This document shows positions 38,517 through 47,270 of a DNA stretch of 64,000 bases, one piece after another (the first letter of the stretch is position 1; each line of letters begins with the position of its first letter). Source of the DNA: Lautropia mirabilis (GTDB taxonomy: Bacteria > Pseudomonadota > Gammaproteobacteria > Burkholderiales > Burkholderiaceae_B); assembly GCA_945876565.1 (NCBI GenBank), contig CAMCOS010000009.1, positions 1-64,000 of the forward strand, given 5' to 3'. Under the pieces are notes generated by a model. It was not told where the DNA came from and searched no databases. It worked only from the letters and a program-made list of their open reading frames with translations. A program made the position numbers and the translations under genes.

Positions 38517-38993
38517 TCAAACCGCCGCCATGCGCTTGCGCAATCGTTTCAGCACGGCCCCAATGAGCGGCAAGCGCTCATAAAGACCCGCAGCCACATC
38601 CCAGTAGTCCACGTGGTCTGTCACTAACCCCTGGTCGTTAATCGCAAAGCGCGTACCGCCTGGGATATCGAATGACTGACCGCGCCACTCAAACTTAAAC
38701 TGCCAGGCCACAAACGCATGGAATGAACTTTGGCCTGAAGTTTGATCCAACGTTTGGCCTGAAGTTTGGCCCCACTGCTCGGCCTGCTCAATAACCTGCG
38801 TGATCTCAAACCTTGGGTTTGTCAGGTTCTCAAACATATGAGCGTATATTGCCTGAATCTGATCGATGCCCACGACATCGTTAAACGGGTCTTTGAAGTG
38901 CGCATTGCCGGCATAGACCTCACCAATCGCATCGAGTGTCTGTGGTGTGAGCGACTCGAACCAGGCCGTAATCTTGGGCAACGGACTTGTCAT
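38517..38993 (-). CDS. NTF2-like / SnoaL-like family protein
   Basis: This 158-aa single-domain protein has the NTF2-like fold. PLPKITAWFESLTPQTLDAIGEVYA is split by loops from AHFKDPFNDVVG and the C-terminal DHVDYWDVAAGLYERLP, which are typical. Members bind small hydrophobic molecules or act as isomerases and hydratases. Residues 78-90 contain a 24-bp duplication (Gly-Gln-Thr repeats). It is the last gene of the lipid operon, 82 nt after the SDR gene. ATG 38993 was chosen by family length. Confidence 0.78.
   Translation of the reverse strand: MTSPLPKITAWFESLTPQTLDAIGEVYAGNAHFKDPFNDVVGIDQIQAIYAHMFENLTNPRFEITQVIEQAEQWGQTSGQTLDQTSGQSSFHAFVAWQFKFEWRGQSFDIPGGTRFAINDQGLVTDHVDYWDVAAGLYERLPLIGAVLKRLRKRMAAV
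38729..38771. repeat. 24-bp tandem duplication, in-frame
   Basis: TTTGGCCTGAAGTTTG followed by ATCCAACG repeats as TTTGGCCTGAAGTTTGG with a period of 24 bp. It encodes the repeated Gln-Thr-Ser-Gly-Gln units of the NTF2-like protein. Confidence 0.8.
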
Positions 38994-39075
38994 GATGGCG
39001 GTGACTCTGAATGGTTGCTTGAAATGGCGCACTTAGGTCATGCGTTGGCTTGATTCGGGCTACTGGAACACTGGA

Positions 39076-39891
39076 TCACTGCTTGGTTGCCCGATGCAAC
39101 AAAGGGAAGCGCCAGCGGTATGGCAGGCGACTGACCCAACGCAAGCCATTGGCGAATCCCCTAGGAAACCGAATCTCAAACCAGCCTTTGGCCATGCCAT
39201 CGATGATCGCTTGCGCGGCCTCGGGCGGCGTCATCAAGCCCGGCATCTCAAAGTCGTTGTTGGCAGTCATCGGCGTTTGCACAAAGCCCGGACTAATCAA
39301 ATACACGCCTAGCCCTTTGGGTGCCAACTCAAAATACAGCGTCTCTGTAAAATTCTGCAAGGCCGATTTGGTCGCACCATAGACAATTGCGCGCGGCAAC
39401 CCCGTGTAACCCGAAATACTGCCAACCACTGCAATCGAACCACTGCGTTGCGCCAATAAACGCGGCGTGACGTGTCTAACCGCCTCGTACATGCTGATGA
39501 CGTTTAACTCGTAGCTTGCCCGAACCTCATCCATGTTCAGGTTCCACGAGTGCTGCGGATCATAGCGGGCCGCACCGAGCACCACCAAGTCCAAGCCGCC
39601 GAAACCAGCAAACACTTCTTCGACTGCTTGCGGCCAGGCTTGCGTGTCGGTCACGTCAAAAGGCACAACCATGGCGTTGCCACCCTTGGGGTGCTTGCTG
39701 ATCAACTCGGTCAGTCTATCTGCCCGTCTGGCTGACACCGCCACCCGGGCACCGGCATCAAGTAGCGCACTAGCCAATGCAGCACCGATACCACTCGATG
39801 CCCCCACGATCCACACCCGACGATCGGTCCAGTCTTTGACGGGCGGGTTCAAGGGCTTAAACATAGATCCAAATAAAGACTGCTGCATCAT
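39076..39891 (-). CDS. short-chain dehydrogenase/reductase
   Basis: This 271-aa NAD(P)-dependent SDR has the nucleotide motif VGASSGIGAALASAL (about residues 28-42), ARRADRL, the active-site Ser in VVGSISGYTG and YGATK with the catalytic Tyr and Lys. The C-terminus is basic and aromatic (RWVSRLPYRWRFPLLH), suggesting membrane contact. It overlaps the DUF3833 gene as ATGATGA, with AAGGA just before. In the operon it could reduce or oxidise a modified acyl chain (inference). Confidence 0.87.
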   Translation of the reverse strand: MMQQSLFGSMFKPLNPPVKDWTDRRVWIVGASSGIGAALASALLDAGARVAVSARRADRLTELISKHPKGGNAMVVPFDVTDTQAWPQAVEEVFAGFGGLDLVVLGAARYDPQHSWNLNMDEVRASYELNVISMYEAVRHVTPRLLAQRSGSIAVVGSISGYTGLPRAIVYGATKSALQNFTETLYFELAPKGLGVYLISPGFVQTPMTANNDFEMPGLMTPPEAAQAIIDGMAKGWFEIRFPRGFANGLRWVSRLPYRWRFPLLHRATKQ

Positions 39892-40466
39892 GATCCTTGC
39901 GCTTTGCTGGTGGCTGAATCAACTTGATCGCCCACCTGACGCTTTTTAAAAAACAGTGAGACTTCACCCAGGTCAAACCCAAACTTGGACATCGTTGAGC
40001 GGTTCATCATGGTGTTCTCATCCATGAGCCACATCCAGTCATCGAACTTCACGTCATAGACCTTGCCGTCCACCGGCAGCTGCAGCGTGTACTTCCAATG
40101 CAAAGCGTTACCCGCCACCTTGCCAATTGCCACGCCCACCACATCATCAGCCGTGCCATGCCAGGTGCCATCGGGCTGCTTGGTCAAGGTCCAGACACGG
40201 CGCTGCTTCTCGCCATCGGCATAAGTAAAGCGCTCATCCAGCACACCCCGATTCGGACCGTCCCATGTGCCCACAATCTCCACATGAAAGCGTCTGACCA
40301 GCTCACCGTTACGCTTTTGAAATATCCCCCAGGCATCCATCTCGCCACTGAAGAAGGTGGATAAATCGAGCACTGGCTTCTGGTCAGCGTAGGTTGAAAC
40401 ATCCACGCTGCCGCATGCGGTCAACAACGCCGCACTCATTGCGGCAAACATTACTTTGAGTTTCAT
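39888..40466 (-). CDS. DUF3833-family lipoprotein
   Basis: This 192-aa protein has a lipoprotein signal (MKLKVMFAAMSAALLTACGS). Conserved DUF3833 features follow: LDLSTFFSGEMDAWGIFQKR, FTYADGEKQRRVW, DDVVGVAIGKVAGNALHWKY and MNRSTMSKFGFDLGEV. No enzymatic function is known. Genes of this family are commonly found next to CFA-synthase-like, DUF1365 and FAD oxidoreductase genes, as here. Its ATG overlaps the MFS stop (ATGA). Confidence 0.88.
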   Translation of the reverse strand: MKLKVMFAAMSAALLTACGSVDVSTYADQKPVLDLSTFFSGEMDAWGIFQKRNGELVRRFHVEIVGTWDGPNRGVLDERFTYADGEKQRRVWTLTKQPDGTWHGTADDVVGVAIGKVAGNALHWKYTLQLPVDGKVYDVKFDDWMWLMDENTMMNRSTMSKFGFDLGEVSLFFKKRQVGDQVDSATSKAQGS

Positions 40467-41749
40467 GACAAGGACTCCAGCTGATTGAGTTTGGCACCCG
40501 CAGGCCAAATGACCCACGCCGCCATGAGTTTGAAAGCCACTGGTAGCACCGCGTACAAAACCGACAACACACCGGCAGTCGCGGGTTCTCCTGGCACATA
40601 GCCCAAGGTACCAAGCAAGGGCAGTGCGGCCCCCGCCGCCAAGGCCAAGGAGAACTTCGCAATCAAGGCCCAGAAGCCGAAGTAGAGCCCGGTGTTCGCG
40701 CGTTCCGCCGGTTCAATGGCATCAGCTAGCATGGCAGGCGGCAGGGCCAAATCAGCGCCGAGTGCCGCGCCACTGACAGCACACACCAACACGTACAGCC
40801 AGACGTCACCCGCACCCAAGAGCGCGGCTGCGACTAAAGCCATGCTCGCCATCACCGCACCCAAGCCCCAGGCCTTGACCTTGCCCACTTTGTCTGAGTA
40901 GCGCACCCACAAAGGCAAGGTCACCAAGCCCGCCAAAAAGTAGACACCCAGAAACAGCCCGGCTTGGCCTGTGGCCTGCAACACATCATCGACAAAGAAC
41001 AAAATCAGGGTCGCCGGGATCGCAGCCGAGGTCGCGTTAAACAAATAAAACCAGTAGAGCCTGCGGATACCGGGGTTCTTTAATGCCTCGCGCCAAGTCG
41101 AACGCTTGTCCGACAAAGCGAGGATCGGTTTGGGCGAACCCAGCAAAGTCACCATCAAGCCGATCGCCAACACCACGGCAAACACGAGCGACAAGCGAAC
41201 ATAGGCTTGGTTTTCACCGAGCTGCGCCACCCACACCACCGGCAACACCGAGGCGAGCACCACACCAATGACACCACTGGCCTCACGCCATCCCGTCACC
41301 CGCGCCCTGCCCGCTTGATCATCAGTCAGCCTTGCACCCCAAGCCAAGTAACAAACATTCAAGCAACTGTGGGCGGTATAGACCAGTACGAGGCTAATCG
41401 ACAGCCATAGCAACAACTGCACTTGCCCTTGCTGAAGCCCTATCTCAGGCCCCATCAACGAAGGCATAAACAAGAGCGCAAACCCAATGGCAAGCACCAC
41501 GGCCGCTGCAACCATCAGCACCGCCCAACCACGGCTGAATTTGGCTAGCCAATCCACCAGACGGCCAATCAAGGGATCCTGCGCCGTGTCAATTAAGCGC
41601 ACCGCAAAGAGCGTGACCCCAAGCGCTGTCAGACTGACGCCCAAGCTGTCACTGTAGAACTTGGGTGCCATCATGTAGATCGGCAGCATCGCCATGGCCA
41701 AGGGCAAAGCCAAGGCGCTGTAGGCAGCCAATGGCCATTGGCGTGTCAC
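40463..41749 (-). CDS. MFS transporter (GPH/MelB-like)
   Basis: This 428-aa permease has about twelve membrane helices. The N-terminal YSALALPLAMAMLPIYMMAPKFY and DTAQDPLIGRLVDW resemble the glycoside-pentoside-hexuronide group. Similar carriers encoded with lipid-modifying genes are poorly characterised; some related MFS proteins move lipids or lipid-like molecules. ATGA overlaps link it to both neighbours, so its dosage is tied to the operon. Confidence 0.85.
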   Translation of the reverse strand: MTRQWPLAAYSALALPLAMAMLPIYMMAPKFYSDSLGVSLTALGVTLFAVRLIDTAQDPLIGRLVDWLAKFSRGWAVLMVAAAVVLAIGFALLFMPSLMGPEIGLQQGQVQLLLWLSISLVLVYTAHSCLNVCYLAWGARLTDDQAGRARVTGWREASGVIGVVLASVLPVVWVAQLGENQAYVRLSLVFAVVLAIGLMVTLLGSPKPILALSDKRSTWREALKNPGIRRLYWFYLFNATSAAIPATLILFFVDDVLQATGQAGLFLGVYFLAGLVTLPLWVRYSDKVGKVKAWGLGAVMASMALVAAALLGAGDVWLYVLVCAVSGAALGADLALPPAMLADAIEPAERANTGLYFGFWALIAKFSLALAAGAALPLLGTLGYVPGEPATAGVLSVLYAVLPVAFKLMAAWVIWPAGAKLNQLESLS

Positions 41750-42363
41750 TGCGTAACCTCTGGCGCGCGAATCGCCTCTTGACCTAGCAGCGCTTGACGC
41801 AAGGCAGGCTGCTTTGTCTTTGGGTCAAGCCAAATCGCAAAAAATGCTTTGGCCAAGCGCTCATCAATTTGACCCGTCAGTTGGTCGTTGTAGAAGAACA
41901 CTGCCCCCTGACCTGGCGTATAGACGCCCGTTAACGTGTCGCCAGCCTTGACCGACTCCATGGCCTGATCCAGCTTTTGTGTCCACTCGGGGTTTCGGTC
42001 AACCGCGAACCCAAGCTCACGCATCTGATCAATCGATGCCTTGACAATATCCTCTTTGGAAACGGTACGCGCATAGCGCAGGGTTAACGCAAACGGACCA
42101 CCAGGCTGGTACTGGCCAAGTGGTGACCACAGTGTGGCGTCGTACACCAAAAACCCCCACCAACGGAATTGTCCGCTGCCAACCTCACCGGCCTTAGGCA
42201 AAAACACCGCCCAGGCAGCATTGTCCGCGGCTTTGTCCGCGGCTTTGTCCGCGGGCCTATCCAATGGCTTCTCCGCGATCGCCGTCGGTGCCCACAAAAG
42301 ACCGGCCAGCGCCAACGACCCGACCGACAAAAAACTTGCCATCTTGCTCGTGGCGTGCCTCAT
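41746..42363 (-). CDS. chalcone isomerase-like protein (first copy)
   Basis: This 205-aa protein has a signal peptide (about residues 1-30, ending near PTAIAEK), so it acts in the periplasm. The Chalcone_3-like fold is suggested by LVYDATLWSP, ALTLRYARTVSKEDIVKASIDQM, KAGDTLTGVYTPGQGAVFFYN and FFAIWLDP. Relatives bind fatty acids rather than chalcones. A 12-bp repeat encodes Ala-Asp-Lys units after the signal. ATG 42363 overlaps the CFA stop as ATGA and is preferred over 42384. Confidence 0.8.
   Translation of the reverse strand: MRHATSKMASFLSVGSLALAGLLWAPTAIAEKPLDRPADKAADKAADNAAWAVFLPKAGEVGSGQFRWWGFLVYDATLWSPLGQYQPGGPFALTLRYARTVSKEDIVKASIDQMRELGFAVDRNPEWTQKLDQAMESVKAGDTLTGVYTPGQGAVFFYNDQLTGQIDERLAKAFFAIWLDPKTKQPALRQALLGQEAIRAPEVTQ
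42221..42256. repeat. 12-bp tandem repeat, 3 copies, in-frame
   Basis: TTGTCCGCGGCT occurs twice, followed by TTGTCCGCGGGC. It encodes Ala-Ala-Asp-Lys repeats right after the signal peptide of the first chalcone isomerase-like protein. Confidence 0.92.
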
Positions 42364-43580
42364 GATGCGTGTGTGAGTAACCATTGCCTGACACCCGTGC
42401 GTTGTTCCCGGAAACCTGCCTCGCAGTACGCCAGGTACATGCGCCAGATCCGAACGAATGATTCATCAAACCCAAGCGCCCGAATATCAGACAGCTTGGC
42501 CTCAAACTGCTGCAGCCATCGGTTCAATGTCTCGGCATAATCCAAACCGAAACTGAACTCGTCTTTGATTTGCAGATTCGCTTGACCAGCGAGTTTCTTA
42601 AATCGCGATGGACTAGGCAACATGCCACCCGGAAAGATGTACTGCTGAATAAAGTCGGTACCGCTGACGTAGGCGTCAAACCGCTCGTTGGCAATGTCGA
42701 TCGTCTGAATCGCGACCTTGCCACCGGGCTTCAGGCTTCTCTTAACCATATTGAAAAACCCTGACCAGTGACGCAAGCCCACGGCCTCGAACATCTCAAT
42801 CGAAACAATGTGGTCGTACTGCCCTTGCACGTCACGGTAGTCACAAATCGACAGATCAACCAAATCAGCCAGCCCTTCACGCTGCATGCGCGCGCGTGCC
42901 CAAGCCAACTGCTCATCGGACAAGGTAATGCCCGTGACTTTCAAGCCGCGCTGAGCCGCGCGTTCAGCCAAACCACCCCAGCCACAACCAATCTCCAAAA
43001 TATGCTGGCCCGGTTTGGCATCAATGGCATCGAGCATGCGGTCATATTTGGTGTGCTGTGCCTCTGCGAGGTCACCATCGGCGCCGTCTTTGAAGATCGC
43101 AGCCGAGTAACTCATCGAGGGGTCTAGCCACAGGCGGTAGAAATCATTGCCCAAGTCATAGTGGGCCAGGATGTTGCGACGACTGCCCTTGCGATTGTTG
43201 TCGCGCAAAACCCAGTGAGCCAGTCGTTTCACCAGCAAGGCCCACCATGTCCCGTGCACTGAATTGACGGCATCTTCGTTGCGCAAAGCAAATCGAAACA
43301 AATTCAACAAATCCGGGCAATCAACCCACTGTCGCCGATAACTCTCAGCAAACCCAACGTCGCCCTGGCGCAGGATCGCAGACGCACAAGACCAGTCATG
43401 CACGGTGAGTTGCGCATGTGGCCACTCACCCTGCTTACCAAACAGCATCGAGCGGCCTTGCGGATCAACCAGCGTGAGCGAACCGATTTTTAGTTTCGCC
43501 AGCATAGACACAAATGCCCTGGCCGCCCACGGCAGTTCGCGGATGGTTTGACGGTCAATGACGTATTCGTTGGCGTTCAT
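42360..43580 (-). CDS. cyclopropane-fatty-acyl-phospholipid synthase family methyltransferase
   Basis: The 406-aa product transfers a methyl(ene) group from S-adenosylmethionine to unsaturated acyl chains of membrane phospholipids. Its SAM motif is HILEIGCGWGGLAERAA (about residues 190-205), preceded by NILAHYDLGNDFYRLWLDPSMSYS and followed by GITLSDEQLAWA and YDHIVSIEMFEAVG. It could make cyclopropane rings, or methylated unsaturated chains like UfaM of furan fatty acid synthesis; the partner genes favour the second (inference). ATGA overlaps on both sides. Confidence 0.92.
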   Translation of the reverse strand: MNANEYVIDRQTIRELPWAARAFVSMLAKLKIGSLTLVDPQGRSMLFGKQGEWPHAQLTVHDWSCASAILRQGDVGFAESYRRQWVDCPDLLNLFRFALRNEDAVNSVHGTWWALLVKRLAHWVLRDNNRKGSRRNILAHYDLGNDFYRLWLDPSMSYSAAIFKDGADGDLAEAQHTKYDRMLDAIDAKPGQHILEIGCGWGGLAERAAQRGLKVTGITLSDEQLAWARARMQREGLADLVDLSICDYRDVQGQYDHIVSIEMFEAVGLRHWSGFFNMVKRSLKPGGKVAIQTIDIANERFDAYVSGTDFIQQYIFPGGMLPSPSRFKKLAGQANLQIKDEFSFGLDYAETLNRWLQQFEAKLSDIRALGFDESFVRIWRMYLAYCEAGFREQRTGVRQWLLTHAS

Positions 43581-44485
43581 CGTGAAGGTCCCTGATTGGA
43601 AGTCACTGCTTCAGTGGGTAAGTCGGGAAGTTTGTGAAACTTGGCACCGCCGCGCCACAGCTTAAAGGCGTGCCAATGAATGCGTGCCATTACGGCAAAG
43701 GTCATGAGCGGCATGCGCAAAAACGCTTTGAGCAATCGGGCAGTGGAGAAAGCCTCAGGCTTGACTGCAATGCCCGTGCGAATGATGGGTTCATCCATCG
43801 ATGTATCATCAAAGTAGTCAATGGTCATGCGATCAATTACGTTTAGGCCCATGCTTTGATCGCCTCGTCCATCCTGCCGCGCATTGATTACCCGCTCAAA
43901 CTGGTAACGTCCAGTGACCGGACAAAATGGCGAGACATGAAACACCTTTTGGCAGGCAAGAACCTGGCTACTTTGAATCGGTTGGCCGTCTGGGGCCGTC
44001 AGCACGTACTGGTGATGCTGGCCAAAGGTATTGTTAACCTCAGCCACAATCACCTTGACTTGGCCCTGTGCGTCGTGCAAATACCAGAAGCTCACTGGGT
44101 TAAACACATAGCCCAACATTCTGGGAAAGGTCTGTAACCACACCGCGCCACCCGGGTGAGCCGCACCGACAGCAGCCAGCGTGTCCGAGAGCCACACATT
44201 CAAATCGCCACCGTCGCGGTAACCGTGGTCTGCGTTCATAAAACTGACCAACCGGCGCTGGTTAAACCCAAAGAGCCAACTGGTTTGCGTGGCCAAGGCA
44301 TGCGGCTGATCCATTCTCAAACGCAAACAGAACACGTCATAATTCAACGGGTGTTTGAAGGGCCGCAAACGTATGTGCCAGACTTTGGCCGGGCAGAACT
44401 GCATCACCGCACCATCAGGCACTTGAGCAGAGATCTGGGCAGAGATCTGAGCAGAGATCTCAGAGACCATGGGATCAGTTGCCAT
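43577..44485 (-). CDS. DUF1365-family protein
   Basis: This 302-aa protein of unknown activity shows KVWHIRLRPFKHPLNYDVFCLRLRMD (split by loops), GDLNVWLSD, TFPRMLGYVFNPVSFWYLHD, AEVNNTFGQHHQYVL and VFHVSPFCPVTGRYQF, all characteristic of DUF1365. These proteins accompany CFA-like and FAD oxidoreductase genes and are thought to act on lipids. ATG 44485 overlaps the upstream gene by 11 nt. Residues near the start carry a 12-bp repeat (Gln-Ile-Ser-Ala). Confidence 0.88.
   Translation of the reverse strand: MATDPMVSEISAQISAQISAQVPDGAVMQFCPAKVWHIRLRPFKHPLNYDVFCLRLRMDQPHALATQTSWLFGFNQRRLVSFMNADHGYRDGGDLNVWLSDTLAAVGAAHPGGAVWLQTFPRMLGYVFNPVSFWYLHDAQGQVKVIVAEVNNTFGQHHQYVLTAPDGQPIQSSQVLACQKVFHVSPFCPVTGRYQFERVINARQDGRGDQSMGLNVIDRMTIDYFDDTSMDEPIIRTGIAVKPEAFSTARLLKAFLRMPLMTFAVMARIHWHAFKLWRGGAKFHKLPDLPTEAVTSNQGPSR
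44425..44460. repeat. 12-bp tandem repeat, 3 copies, in-frame
   Basis: GAGCAGAGATCT, GGGCAGAGATCT and GAGCAGAGATCT follow each other near the 5' end of the DUF1365 gene and encode Ala-Gln-Ile-Ser units. Confidence 0.93.
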
Positions 44486-45815
44486 AGAGGTCACGCCCCC
44501 AAGGAATTGGCACACCAAAGTCATTGGCCACCGCGATGGCCGAGCGCAAGCCGTCCTCATGAAATCCGTAGCCACACCAGGCGCCGCAAAACCATGTACG
44601 ACGCTGGCCCTGAATCGATGGCAACTGGCGTTGGGCATTGATCAAGTTAGTGTTCATCACCGGATGGTCATAATCGAAATGCGCAATGACGGCTTGAGGA
44701 TCTGGCACCTTGAAACTGTTCAAAGTCACCACCACCGGCTTCTTAAACGGCAAGGGCTGGAGTTTGTTCAGCAGATAACTCACCGCCACTGGTTTGGCCA
44801 CACCGGATGTCGCTGGACTGCCACCCTCAGAGAGGTAATTCCATGCCGACCAAACTGTCTGACGGCGGGGTAAGAGCTTGGCATCGGTGTGTAAGACGGC
44901 TGTATTGGGCTGATATCGAATGCCACCAAGAACCGCGCGCTCGTCATCCTGCAAATCCAAAATGGCACAACTCGTGGGTGCATGACAGGCCATGACCACA
45001 CCATCGAAACTTTGAACCCCGGCAGCACTATGTATCTGGACCGAATCACTGCCAAGTGTGGTCTCGCCATTAACGCACTCCCGCTTGATCGCATGAACCG
45101 GACAGTTCAGGTGCGTGGCCTGAATTTTAGGGATCATGGCTTTGACATACTCGCGTGAGCCGCCAAGCACCGTGCGCCACTGTGGGCGGCCTTGGATCTG
45201 CAGCAGACGGTGGTTCAGACAAAACTTAAAAAACGTCTGGGCGGGAAACCCCAGAATATCCTTGACCGACGACGACCAAATGGCAGCGGCCATGGGCAGC
45301 AGATACCAATCCTGCATGGGCTTGCCATAGCCATGGCGCGCCAGCAGTTCGCCGAGTGTGAGCGGTGCAGATTCGACCTCACGCAAATAGGCTTCGGCTG
45401 ACTTGTTAAAGCGCATGATGTCGCGCAGCATGCCCAGAAAGGCTGGGCGCCACAAATTGGATTTCTGCGCAAACACCGTGCCCAAATTGGTACCTGCCCA
45501 TTCGATGTCGGGCTCATCAATGGATACGCCAAACGACATGTCACTTTGGTGAACTGGCACGCCAAGCAATTCAAACAAGGCAATCAAATTCGGGTAAGTC
45601 AGGTCGTTGTGCACTAAAAAGCCTGTATCCACCGGTGAGGTCATGCCTTCCAGTGTCACGTCCACGGTGTTGGAGTGACCGCCGAAGTACGAGCCTGCTT
45701 CAAACAAAGTCACGTGATAGCGCTCGGCCAATAACCAGGCGCTAGCCAGCCCGGCAATGCCAGAGCCAACCACGGCAATGCGCGAACCGGCTGGCGGGAT
45801 GCGGGCGCTGTCCAT
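44475..45815 (-). CDS. FAD-dependent oxidoreductase (amine-oxidase fold)
   Basis: This 446-aa flavoprotein has the dinucleotide motif RIAVVGSGIAGLASAWLLA near its start, then FEAGSYFGGHSNTVDV. VDTGFLVHNDLTYPNLIALFELLG, WAGTNLGTVFAQ and the C-terminal FCGAWCGYGFHEDGLRSA are typical of the NAD/FAD-binding proteins paired with DUF1365. In alphaproteobacteria related flavoproteins take part in making methylated or furan fatty acids on phospholipids. It starts in a TAATG overlap with the preceding gene. Confidence 0.9.
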   Translation of the reverse strand: MDSARIPPAGSRIAVVGSGIAGLASAWLLAERYHVTLFEAGSYFGGHSNTVDVTLEGMTSPVDTGFLVHNDLTYPNLIALFELLGVPVHQSDMSFGVSIDEPDIEWAGTNLGTVFAQKSNLWRPAFLGMLRDIMRFNKSAEAYLREVESAPLTLGELLARHGYGKPMQDWYLLPMAAAIWSSSVKDILGFPAQTFFKFCLNHRLLQIQGRPQWRTVLGGSREYVKAMIPKIQATHLNCPVHAIKRECVNGETTLGSDSVQIHSAAGVQSFDGVVMACHAPTSCAILDLQDDERAVLGGIRYQPNTAVLHTDAKLLPRRQTVWSAWNYLSEGGSPATSGVAKPVAVSYLLNKLQPLPFKKPVVVTLNSFKVPDPQAVIAHFDYDHPVMNTNLINAQRQLPSIQGQRRTWFCGAWCGYGFHEDGLRSAIAVANDFGVPIPWGRDLYGN

Positions 45816-46369
45816 TAGGCTTGCTCCAGGCCAAGCAATTTGGTGCGCAACGCCGGTGCACGGGTCTGCTCATCGAGCCAGACCGCCGCAAAGGCGTCTA
45901 CAAAGCCCGGGTCCTGAATCGAACCTAACGCCGCCTCGCGGCTAAAGAAGGACACGCCGACTCCCGGCTCAAACACACCAATCAGGCGATCACCGAGTTT
46001 GACATCCGGCAAAATATCCAACATCAACTCACCCCACCGATCGGCGGTGTCGGCCTCAACGCCCACGATGCGCTGAATCTCCTGAACGGAGGTCTGGGCA
46101 ATTTGCTCAGCACTCACGTTGCGCAGGTAGTTCAGGTCTAGCGCATACACCTGATCGGTCGCAAAGCCATCGCCCGTGACGTGTAAAGCTGCCCGGTAAA
46201 CCCGGAACACGCTCCAAGTAAAGAGCCCTTGGCCATGCACATGCCAATTGCCCGCAAAGCGCTGCGTTACGGCCAATGGCAGGGGGGCAATTTTTGGGGC
46301 ATCGTCAAACGCGGCAGATACGGGCATAATGATCGCTACTGAAAAGTTATAAAAAAACTTGAGAGTCAT
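45815..46369 (-). CDS. chalcone isomerase-like protein (second copy)
   Basis: This 184-aa probable periplasmic protein is the first gene of the operon. A short hydrophobic N-terminus (MTLKFFYNFSVAIIMPVSA) looks like a signal peptide. WSVFRVYRAALHVTGDGFA, YALDLNYLRNVSAEQIAQTSVQEIQRI, LGDRLIGVFEPGVGVSFFSRE and AAVWLDEQTRAPALRTKLLG parallel the other copy in the operon, but the two are clearly diverged. The start is uncertain (ATG 46369 or 46327), and the frame is open to 46486. Confidence 0.78.
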   Translation of the reverse strand: MTLKFFYNFSVAIIMPVSAAFDDAPKIAPLPLAVTQRFAGNWHVHGQGLFTWSVFRVYRAALHVTGDGFATDQVYALDLNYLRNVSAEQIAQTSVQEIQRIVGVEADTADRWGELMLDILPDVKLGDRLIGVFEPGVGVSFFSREAALGSIQDPGFVDAFAAVWLDEQTRAPALRTKLLGLEQA

Positions 46370-46607
46370 AAATCGAGTAACACAGTCTTTAAAGTGAACG
46401 ATTCTTTGCGCTAACGAGATAAACACCACGCATGAATGACCAGAAAAGACACTGAAATTGACAATCGAGACTAGAATTTGAACCAATGGGTTTAATAAAA
46501 ATACTGATTAGTAACTTTCTGAACCGATTAGATACTATTTATTGAAACTGCGCAATACCCTTGCGTACCCGGTTATTCCCTAGGGCAACCTCTTTTTCTT
46601 AGAACTT
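46370..46607. promoter_or_regulatory. divergent promoter region of the lipid operon and tetR
   Basis: This AT-rich region separates the leftward operon from the rightward TetR gene. It contains the small palindrome TACT-GATT-AGTA (46502-46513) and the related GATTAGATACTA about 20 bp later, which are candidates for TetR operator sites. I could not define a clear -35/-10 pair for either side. Confidence 0.4.
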
Positions 46608-47270
46608 ATGACGCAAGCAGTGGCCTCCTCACCTAAAACCCTCGACAAAACTGCCGACAAAAAGCCCTCTTTCAAAGAGCAGCAGCACAAATTCCGCGAA
46701 GACGCGATTCTTGATACCGTCAACCGCCTACTCGCGCAAAAAGGCTATGACCTGATGACCATGGACGAGGTCGCGGCCGAAGTCGGTATCGCCAAAGCCA
46801 GCCTCTACAAACATTTCGAGTCCAAAGAAGCCTTAGCCGCCGCCTCCATGACGCGTTTCATTGAAGACGCCATCGCCATGGCCCGCGGCCTACCCGAACA
46901 CTTGAGCCCGCTGGAGAAGTTGAAATCCGTGGTGCGCTGGGCTGTGCGCATTCATTTGTCGGGCACCATGCCATCACTGCCCTCAACACGCTCAAGCATT
47001 CAACAGGCACTGCTCGCCCACCAGGCCTATGTGCAGCGACTCGAAGAACTGACCGAGATCCTGGGCGAGTGGATTGGCCAAGCGCAAGAAACCGGTGACC
47101 TTTCTCCCGCCTTGCCCGGCGAAGTCATTCTCTACACCATCTACGCGCGCTCCTGCGACCCAGTGGCGGATTTCTTAAAGGGTGGTGGCGCATTTAGTGA
47201 CAACGACATCATCGATCTGGTCGTACACACCTGCTTTGAAGGCATGGCCAAGGCACCGAGCTGCCCCTAA
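46608..47270 (+). CDS. TetR/AcrR-family transcriptional regulator
   Basis: This 220-aa regulator has about 30 Lys-rich N-terminal residues before the helix-turn-helix domain. The domain reads AILDTVNRLLAQKGYDLMTMDEVAAEVGIAKASLYKHFESKEALAA across its helices (quoted here in parts: DEVAAEVGIAKASLYKHF). The C-terminal ligand domain is helical. It is divergent from the nine-gene lipid operon, the usual layout for a local repressor, so that operon is its likely target. The ligand may be a fatty acid or acyl-CoA (inference). Confidence 0.88.
   Translation: MTQAVASSPKTLDKTADKKPSFKEQQHKFREDAILDTVNRLLAQKGYDLMTMDEVAAEVGIAKASLYKHFESKEALAAASMTRFIEDAIAMARGLPEHLSPLEKLKSVVRWAVRIHLSGTMPSLPSTRSSIQQALLAHQAYVQRLEELTEILGEWIGQAQETGDLSPALPGEVILYTIYARSCDPVADFLKGGGAFSDNDIIDLVVHTCFEGMAKAPSCP

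Follow-up and report, generated by a model that had tools for sequence, protein, structure and literature searches.

The window, i.e., the entire 64,000-nucleotide (nt) stretch of Lautropia mirabilis DNA analysed here (contig CAMCOS010000009.1, positions 1 to 64,000), contains nine minus-strand genes that form an operon running from 46369 to 38517, next to a divergent tetR gene. All nine frames are open, without internal stops, and the products of the nine genes and of tetR score above the Pfam family cut-offs. In operon order, the domains are Chalcone_3, Amino_oxidase/NAD_binding_8, DUF1365, CMAS, Chalcone_3, MFS_2, DUF3833, adh_short and SnoaL_2, and the tetR product contains TetR_N; these matches and the open frames confirm the gene order, the location and the divergent TetR gene given in a preliminary description of the locus. 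The junctions along the first eight genes, read from the sequence, are TAATG, an 11-nt overlap and then five 4-nt overlaps, as in that description, except that one of the overlaps given there as ATGA is GTGA, the MFS gene having a GTG start. The gap between the eighth and ninth genes is 82 nt. Judging from sequence comparisons, this is probably a known operon for an antioxidant lipid, a furan fatty acid (ufa), equipped with a third, interchangeable switch. The features are:

46608-47270, plus strand: tetR, TetR-family regulator, divergent from the operon (Pfam TetR_N)
46502-46513, no strand: probable TetR operator TACTGATTAGTA, palindromic core ACTNNNNAGT (motif shared by tetR-linked intergenic regions)
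45815-46369, minus strand: chi1, chalcone isomerase-like (Chalcone_3), with a hydrophobic, signal-peptide-like N-terminus (Pfam; N-terminus and conserved residues)
44475-45815, minus strand: UfaD-type flavin adenine dinucleotide (FAD) oxidoreductase, predicted acyl-lipid desaturase (Pfam Amino_oxidase/NAD_binding_8; identity to the R. palustris XCP homologue)
43577-44485, minus strand: UfaO-type DUF1365 protein, predicted furan-forming oxygenase (Pfam DUF1365; identity to the R. palustris XCP protein; invariant columns)
42360-43580, minus strand: UfaM-type CFA-like S-adenosylmethionine (SAM) methyltransferase (tree; Ala and Gln at E. coli Cfa C139 and H266)
41746-42363, minus strand: chi2, chalcone isomerase-like (Chalcone_3), with a signal-peptide-like N-terminus (Pfam)
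40463-41749, minus strand: MFS_2 (GPH-type) transporter, GTG start (Pfam; PDB sequence matches)
39888-40466, minus strand: DUF3833 putative lipoprotein, lipobox LTAC (Pfam; lipobox-like motif in homologues)
39076-39891, minus strand: short-chain dehydrogenase/reductase (SDR), in the position of RSP1087 (Pfam; gene contexts)
38517-38993, minus strand: SnoaL/NTF2-like protein, ninth gene (Pfam; same place in five loci of the genus)

Of six other genomes of the genus listed, five encode a DUF1365 protein, and in all five loci (5/5) the same nine genes and the divergent tetR recur in the same order, so that the gene arrangement is not due to chance. In-frame, 12-bp tandem repeats are present in the NTF2-like (38724-38771), chi2 (42221-42254) and DUF1365 (44424-44460) genes.

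Core enzymes

In Rhodobacter sphaeroides, cis-vaccenate is methylated by UfaM and the methylated chain is then desaturated by UfaD, after which UfaO, a DUF1365 protein, adds oxygen and closes the furan ring; in alphaproteobacteria, the three enzymes together are sufficient for the formation of the furan fatty acid 9M5-FuFA, which is lost on exposure to singlet oxygen and is protective (PMC7380195). We compared the window proteins with those of Rhodopseudomonas palustris XCP (L125), a strain different from CGA009, which was used in the published experiments. The FAD protein is 42.7% identical to the UfaD homologue over 440 amino acids (aa; E 7e-114), the DUF1365 protein is 37.8% identical to its counterpart over 286 aa, and the methyltransferase is 43.2% identical to UfaM. 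The DUF1365 protein scores 227.2 bits against the Pfam DUF1365 cut-off of 25, and 26 columns are invariant across 42 rows, the window's row included. The FAD and DUF1365 proteins are thus assigned to the UfaD and UfaO types by homology only. Among 200 homologous loci, scored with profiles built for this analysis, the triad fad-duf1365-cfa is present in 182. Combined with the phylogeny of the methyltransferase, these comparisons provide strong support for the assignment of the three enzymes to UfaD, UfaO and UfaM.

The AlphaFold model of the UfaO homologue (43577-44485; pLDDT 84) contains many beta strands and conserved His residues. A single Foldseek match fell below E 0.001, and TM-scores were low; the top-ranking VIA matches (Z 7.0 or lower), among them nitrobindin and OlmO-type barrels, lie in a range that may reflect only a common arrangement. 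The weak nitrobindin-type barrel matches (Z 6-7) bear on the question of the UfaO cofactor; they are not decisive, and we claim neither a fold nor a cofactor.

In a tree of CMAS proteins (71 rows, quick search, with support from the SH-like approximate likelihood ratio test, SH-aLRT, only), the window methyltransferase falls inside a 48-row UfaM clade (SH-aLRT 99), together with UfaM of R. palustris XCP and the sole CMAS protein of the genome of locus L095, a candidate for the RSP2144 position. Outside this clade lie E. coli Cfa and the second CMAS protein of the window's own genome (contig C3, 48737), which groups with Cfa-type rows. The 12 rows called FufM-like, a label based on genome position in genome G928 rather than on a sequence of CGA009, make up a clade of their own (SH-aLRT 100). 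At position 266 of E. coli Cfa, Gln occurs in all 48 UfaM-clade rows, compared with His in 11/11 Cfa-type and 12/12 FufM-like rows; at position 139, Cys occurs in none of the 48 UfaM-clade rows and in all 11 Cfa-type rows. The window protein has Ala at C139 and Gln at H266, and thus lacks the Cys/His signature of Cfa; we take these two positions to be bicarbonate ligands of the E. coli enzyme. The clade membership, the Gln in place of His266 and the non-Cys residue at 139 bear out the preliminary description of this protein as CFA-like as opposed to ordinary Cfa, and the check proposed there, a phylogeny against Cfa, UfaM and FufM, groups it with UfaM and not with Cfa. The further suggestion that the operon may make a modified acyl lipid not yet described loses its basis, because the methyltransferase groups with a described pathway; the triad constitutes the complete known ufaD-ufaO-ufaM set and should therefore yield a furan fatty acid with one ring methyl, a class already described. 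Halomonas UfaM expressed in E. coli is reported to give rise to a furan fatty acid intermediate (PMC12089945).

At E 1e-10, the window's genome encodes two CMAS proteins, neither of which falls in the FufM-like clade; it is for this reason that a monomethyl product is expected. A dimethyl furan product was considered and rejected on the same grounds, even if methylases of other kinds may exist. Elsewhere, 24 of the 200 loci have another CMAS gene close to the triad (e.g., L055, L056, L061, L062, L078-L081, L105-L107 and L237-L241), and the second CMAS proteins of eight of these loci were placed in the FufM-like clade; such a protein may add a second ring methyl.

Distribution across relatives and exchange of regulators

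The 200 loci include 92 from the order Burkholderiales, which were picked from match lists and not at random: 40 come from the 46 other genomes of the family with DUF1365, and 52 from other families, drawn in part from a list in which 164 of 349 genomes had DUF1365. The placement in Burkholderiales agrees with L268, a member of the order that is 90.8% identical over 4 kb to Burkholderia arboris; the corresponding comparison for L112 yielded no informative match. A further 80, the named loci, are the top 80 among 198 matches, lean towards Rhodopseudomonas kin and have flanks of at most 5 kb. All eight genes of the core fad-duf1365-cfa-chi2-mfs-duf3833-sdr-ntf2 are present in 52 of the 92 Burkholderiales loci (genus, 5/5; other loci of the family, 20/35; other families, 27/52), in 0/28 loci of other orders, and in 0/80 named, mostly alphaproteobacterial loci. 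The extra chi1 gene was found in 5 loci of the genus and 6 other loci of the family, and in none of those from other families of the order, other orders or the named set. Many loci contain the triad without the auxiliary module.

We then compared the neighbouring regulators, again with profiles built for this analysis; MerR with B12-binding domains (MerR-B12) was counted at any position in the retrieved DNA, ChrR in a 17-kb portion of it, and TetR only if divergent and within 4.5 kb. The regulator was ChrR in 59 loci, MerR-B12 in 37 and divergent TetR in 36, with none seen in 68, and no two of the three were ever found in the same locus. The lowest ChrR profile score counted was 216 bits, and Pfam was run on three of the MerR-B12 proteins; because the flanks of the 80 named loci do not exceed 5 kb, regulators further off are missed there. 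The 52 complete cores are accompanied by MerR-B12 (28), TetR (21) or none (3). On the UfaD tree (101 rows; quick search, many weak forks), the regulator states require at least 7 changes when the "none seen" rows are left out. The best match to ChrR in the window's genome scores 34.4 bits, against a cut-off of 124.5, and the window contains no matches to the merR, chrR and rpoE profiles; nor did it match the MerR-B12 profile, a distant regulator elsewhere in the genome not having been sought. The gene classes of the RpoE-ChrR core regulon (SDR, lipoprotein, DUF1365, FAD and CFA-like) are all present in the window, which has no sign of RpoE-ChrR control itself.

RpoE of R. sphaeroides, restrained by ChrR, responds to singlet oxygen (PMC3818230); in P. 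mendocina, light induces a cluster that contains ufaM and a class II LitR (MerR type), ufaM itself by 25- to 33-fold (PMC9758184); blue light induces VC1122 of V. cholerae, annotated as CFA synthase, with ChrR and MerR mediating the response (PMC5241685); and the Shewanella operon that includes both cfa and phrB has an RpoE2-type promoter (PMC4336711). Because the regulators of its relatives answer singlet oxygen or light, the TetR of the window stands where they have a photo-oxidative switch. Three tetR-free loci of the order each have one typed neighbour in keeping with an island for photo-oxidative stress: a gene for a photolyase-related protein in L045, folE2 in L054 and a glutathione peroxidase gene in L236. 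In the literature searched, no description of a TetR-controlled ufa operon was found, leaving out of account PMC8508746, in which the words ufaM, TetR-type and LitR-type occur. What is new here is the mutual exclusivity of the regulators across the 200 loci and the palindrome common to the tetR-linked regions.

Putative operator

The palindrome ACTNNNNAGT was found in 29 of the 37 tetR-linked intergenic regions (shuffle mean, 1.8) compared with 4 of the 158 regions without tetR (shuffle mean, 6.2); the shuffles preserved base composition only, and the 158 regions are those left of 164 tetR-free loci once 6 that lacked a usable region had been dropped. The pattern had been picked by eye from 22 regions. 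Of the 13 regions that played no part in this choice (L197 and 12 obtained afterwards), 9 have it (shuffle mean, 0.6), as do 19 of the 23 other relatives. The copy in the window, TACTGATTAGTA at 46502-46513, is a shared palindrome located between the divergent genes. Exact TACTRATYAGTA sites number three in the window's genome, against one for the reversed control pattern. In L034, a member of the genus, the operator motif forms the centre of a perfect 48-bp palindrome between tetR and chi1. Control of the operon by TetR, surmised in the preliminary description, is probable and has good support in the motif shared by the tetR-linked regions.

Auxiliary genes and their precedents

All 3 PDB sequence matches of the MFS protein are MFSD2A-type lysophosphatidylcholine transporters, matched over part of the protein. 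A lipobox-like motif lies near the N-terminus in 68 of the 93 DUF3833 homologues, and chi1 and chi2 have signal-like N-termini. Searches of PDB sequences with chi1, chi2 and DUF3833 returned nothing credible, and the structure of chi2 predicted from one sequence (pLDDT 39) is unusable. Transport or handling of lipids by the MFS, DUF3833 and chi proteins may be inferred from these sequence features.

In loci L092, L095 and L098, ufaD-ufaO is followed by MFS_2, DUF3833 and SDR genes beside rpoE-chrR, and L100 contains fad-duf1365-cfa-chi-mfs-duf3833-sdr beside chrR, the sole such locus with chrR among the 200; these four loci probably belong to Rhodobacteraceae, to judge from the rpoE-chrR surroundings and from best plasmid matches to Qingshengfaniella and, in the case of L100, Paracoccus. 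The preliminary description had related the operon to gene sets of stress sigma factors, which agrees with the similar genes beside rpoE-chrR in these relatives; its statement that the set is larger here holds only in part, given the three auxiliary genes in L092, L095 and L098 and the seven-gene version in L100. UfaM of L100, L101 and L104, from a family of a different class than that of the window, is nested among Burkholderiales-type sequences, suggesting that the cassette has been transferred. The RpoE-ChrR core regulon includes the SDR RSP_1087, the lipoprotein RSP_1088, RSP_1090, the FAD protein RSP_1091 and cfaS (PMC5507510). In R. sphaeroides, deletion of RSP1087, 1088 or 1089 left the fatty acid profile unchanged (PMC7380195), so that these counterparts of the SDR, DUF3833 and MFS genes are dispensable for synthesis there. 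Synteny and length, not its own sequence, suggest that RSP1089 is the MFS protein.

Discussion

From the observed homology, clade membership, residue signature, synteny and shared motif, we infer the following model of the reactions, the repression, its ligand and the auxiliary roles. UfaM would methylate a cis-monounsaturated acyl chain of a phospholipid (by analogy, cis-vaccenate to 11Me-12t-18:1), UfaD would desaturate the methylated chain to a conjugated methyl-diene, and UfaO would insert oxygen, closing a furan of the 9M5-FuFA type with one ring methyl; the furan acyl lipid would scavenge singlet oxygen in the membrane. The SDR, DUF3833, MFSD2-like, two chi and NTF2-like proteins would constitute a co-inherited auxiliary module that more likely handles, moves or repairs the furan lipid or its oxidation products than makes the lipid. 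The divergent TetR would repress itself and the operon via the palindrome at 46502-46513, replacing the RpoE-ChrR or B12-domain MerR of relatives, until a stress-derived ligand releases it and the operon is turned on. A broader scenario appears conceivable, if rather doubtful: one antioxidant-lipid operon would have been repeatedly rewired among RpoE-ChrR (singlet oxygen), B12-domain MerR (light) and a TetR that senses a lipid signal (an oxidised or methylated acyl group), with the MFSD2-like transporter, the DUF3833 lipoprotein and periplasmic chi proteins forming a route by which furan phospholipid, or what is formed from it, reaches the outer membrane.

Several observations weigh against a furan fatty acid operon under TetR control. 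The window proteins share no more than 38-43% identity with those of R. palustris, so that chain length or methyl position could differ, and the lack of effect of the RSP1087-1089 deletions on the fatty acid profile (PMC7380195) leaves the auxiliary module without a demonstrated lipid role. The operator pattern was selected visually on 22 regions and does not occur in 8 of the 37 tetR-linked ones, and these loci are related, hence the motif counts are not independent. No sigma-70-like promoter was recognised by consensus in the intergenic region. The two TACTRATYAGTA sites outside the window are at no obvious promoter; we claim no wider TetR regulon because one lies in a stretch with short open reading frames (ORFs) only and the other inside an ORF.

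These points bear on three alternatives. The operon might make a different, undescribed acyl lipid, the UfaM, UfaD and UfaO homologues beginning the synthesis, the SDR, chi and NTF2-like proteins modifying the furan further and the MFS protein exporting it. The persistence of the full core in 5/5 loci of the genus, 20/35 other loci of the family and 27/52 others of the order, the signal-like N-termini of the chi and DUF3833 proteins, and the resemblance of the MFS protein to lysophospholipid transporters are compatible with this possibility, but given the unchanged profile of the R. sphaeroides deletion strains (PMC7380195) and the many loci that hold the triad without the module, we consider it quite unlikely. 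That the operon is an ordinary cyclopropane fatty acid operon, with the CMAS protein being Cfa and the rest an unrelated membrane stress response, is highly improbable: the CMAS domain is indeed present, and the best NCBIfam matches are named cyclopropane synthases, yet these fall below their cut-offs (at best 260.5 of 400 bits), the tree and the residue signature, which place the protein in the UfaM clade, led us to reject Cfa, and the genome has a separate CMAS protein that groups with Cfa-type rows. Finally, the adjacent TetR might not control the operon, the motif serving tetR alone or another regulator, as the failure to find a promoter by consensus and the tetR-linked regions without the exact motif would allow. 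This appears unlikely because the motif follows the presence of tetR (29/37 vs. 4/158), and tetR, ChrR and MerR-B12 never share a locus among the 200. A TetR-controlled operon for furan fatty acid synthesis is the interpretation that we favour.

Under this interpretation, the route to furan fatty acids elucidated in two alphaproteobacteria would extend to a conserved operon in the order of Burkholderia, and Gln in place of His266 of E. coli Cfa would serve as a simple annotation marker that separates UfaM from Cfa. The pair of TetR and operator offers a way to identify the signal to which antioxidant lipid synthesis responds in bacteria of this kind, and the analysis draws attention to a set of auxiliary genes of no known function that accompanies the pathway.

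Comparison with known systems

Among the closest known systems is the UfaM-UfaD-UfaO pathway of R. sphaeroides and R. palustris (PMC7380195), which has all three enzyme families, the triad order as in RPA2571-2570-2569, and, in R. palustris XCP, a UfaM in the clade of the window methyltransferase; the window differs in the adjacent TetR and the added chi and NTF2-like genes, and the CMAS proteins of its genome are not FufM-like. FufM (the 9M5-FuFA methylase, RPA0924) itself belongs to the CMAS family, but FufM-like rows form a clade apart from the window protein. E. coli Cfa likewise shares the CMAS family and SAM-dependent methyl transfer to acyl chains, but lies outside the UfaM clade, the window protein having Ala for C139 and Gln for H266. 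The RpoE-ChrR core regulon that includes RSP_1091-1087 (Table 2 of PMC5507510; PMC3818230) has the FAD, DUF1365, SDR, lipoprotein and CFA-like genes in common with the window, and L092, L095 and L098 hold fad-duf1365-mfs-duf3833-sdr beside rpoE-chrR, whereas the window operon has no rpoE, chrR or photolyase gene, and no ChrR above cut-off is encoded in the genome. The light-induced phrB-SDR-FAD-ufaM cluster of Pseudomonas (PMC9758184) similarly combines an SDR, an FAD oxidoreductase and ufaM in one regulated cluster, with LitR (MerR type) and a photolyase there and TetR in the window.

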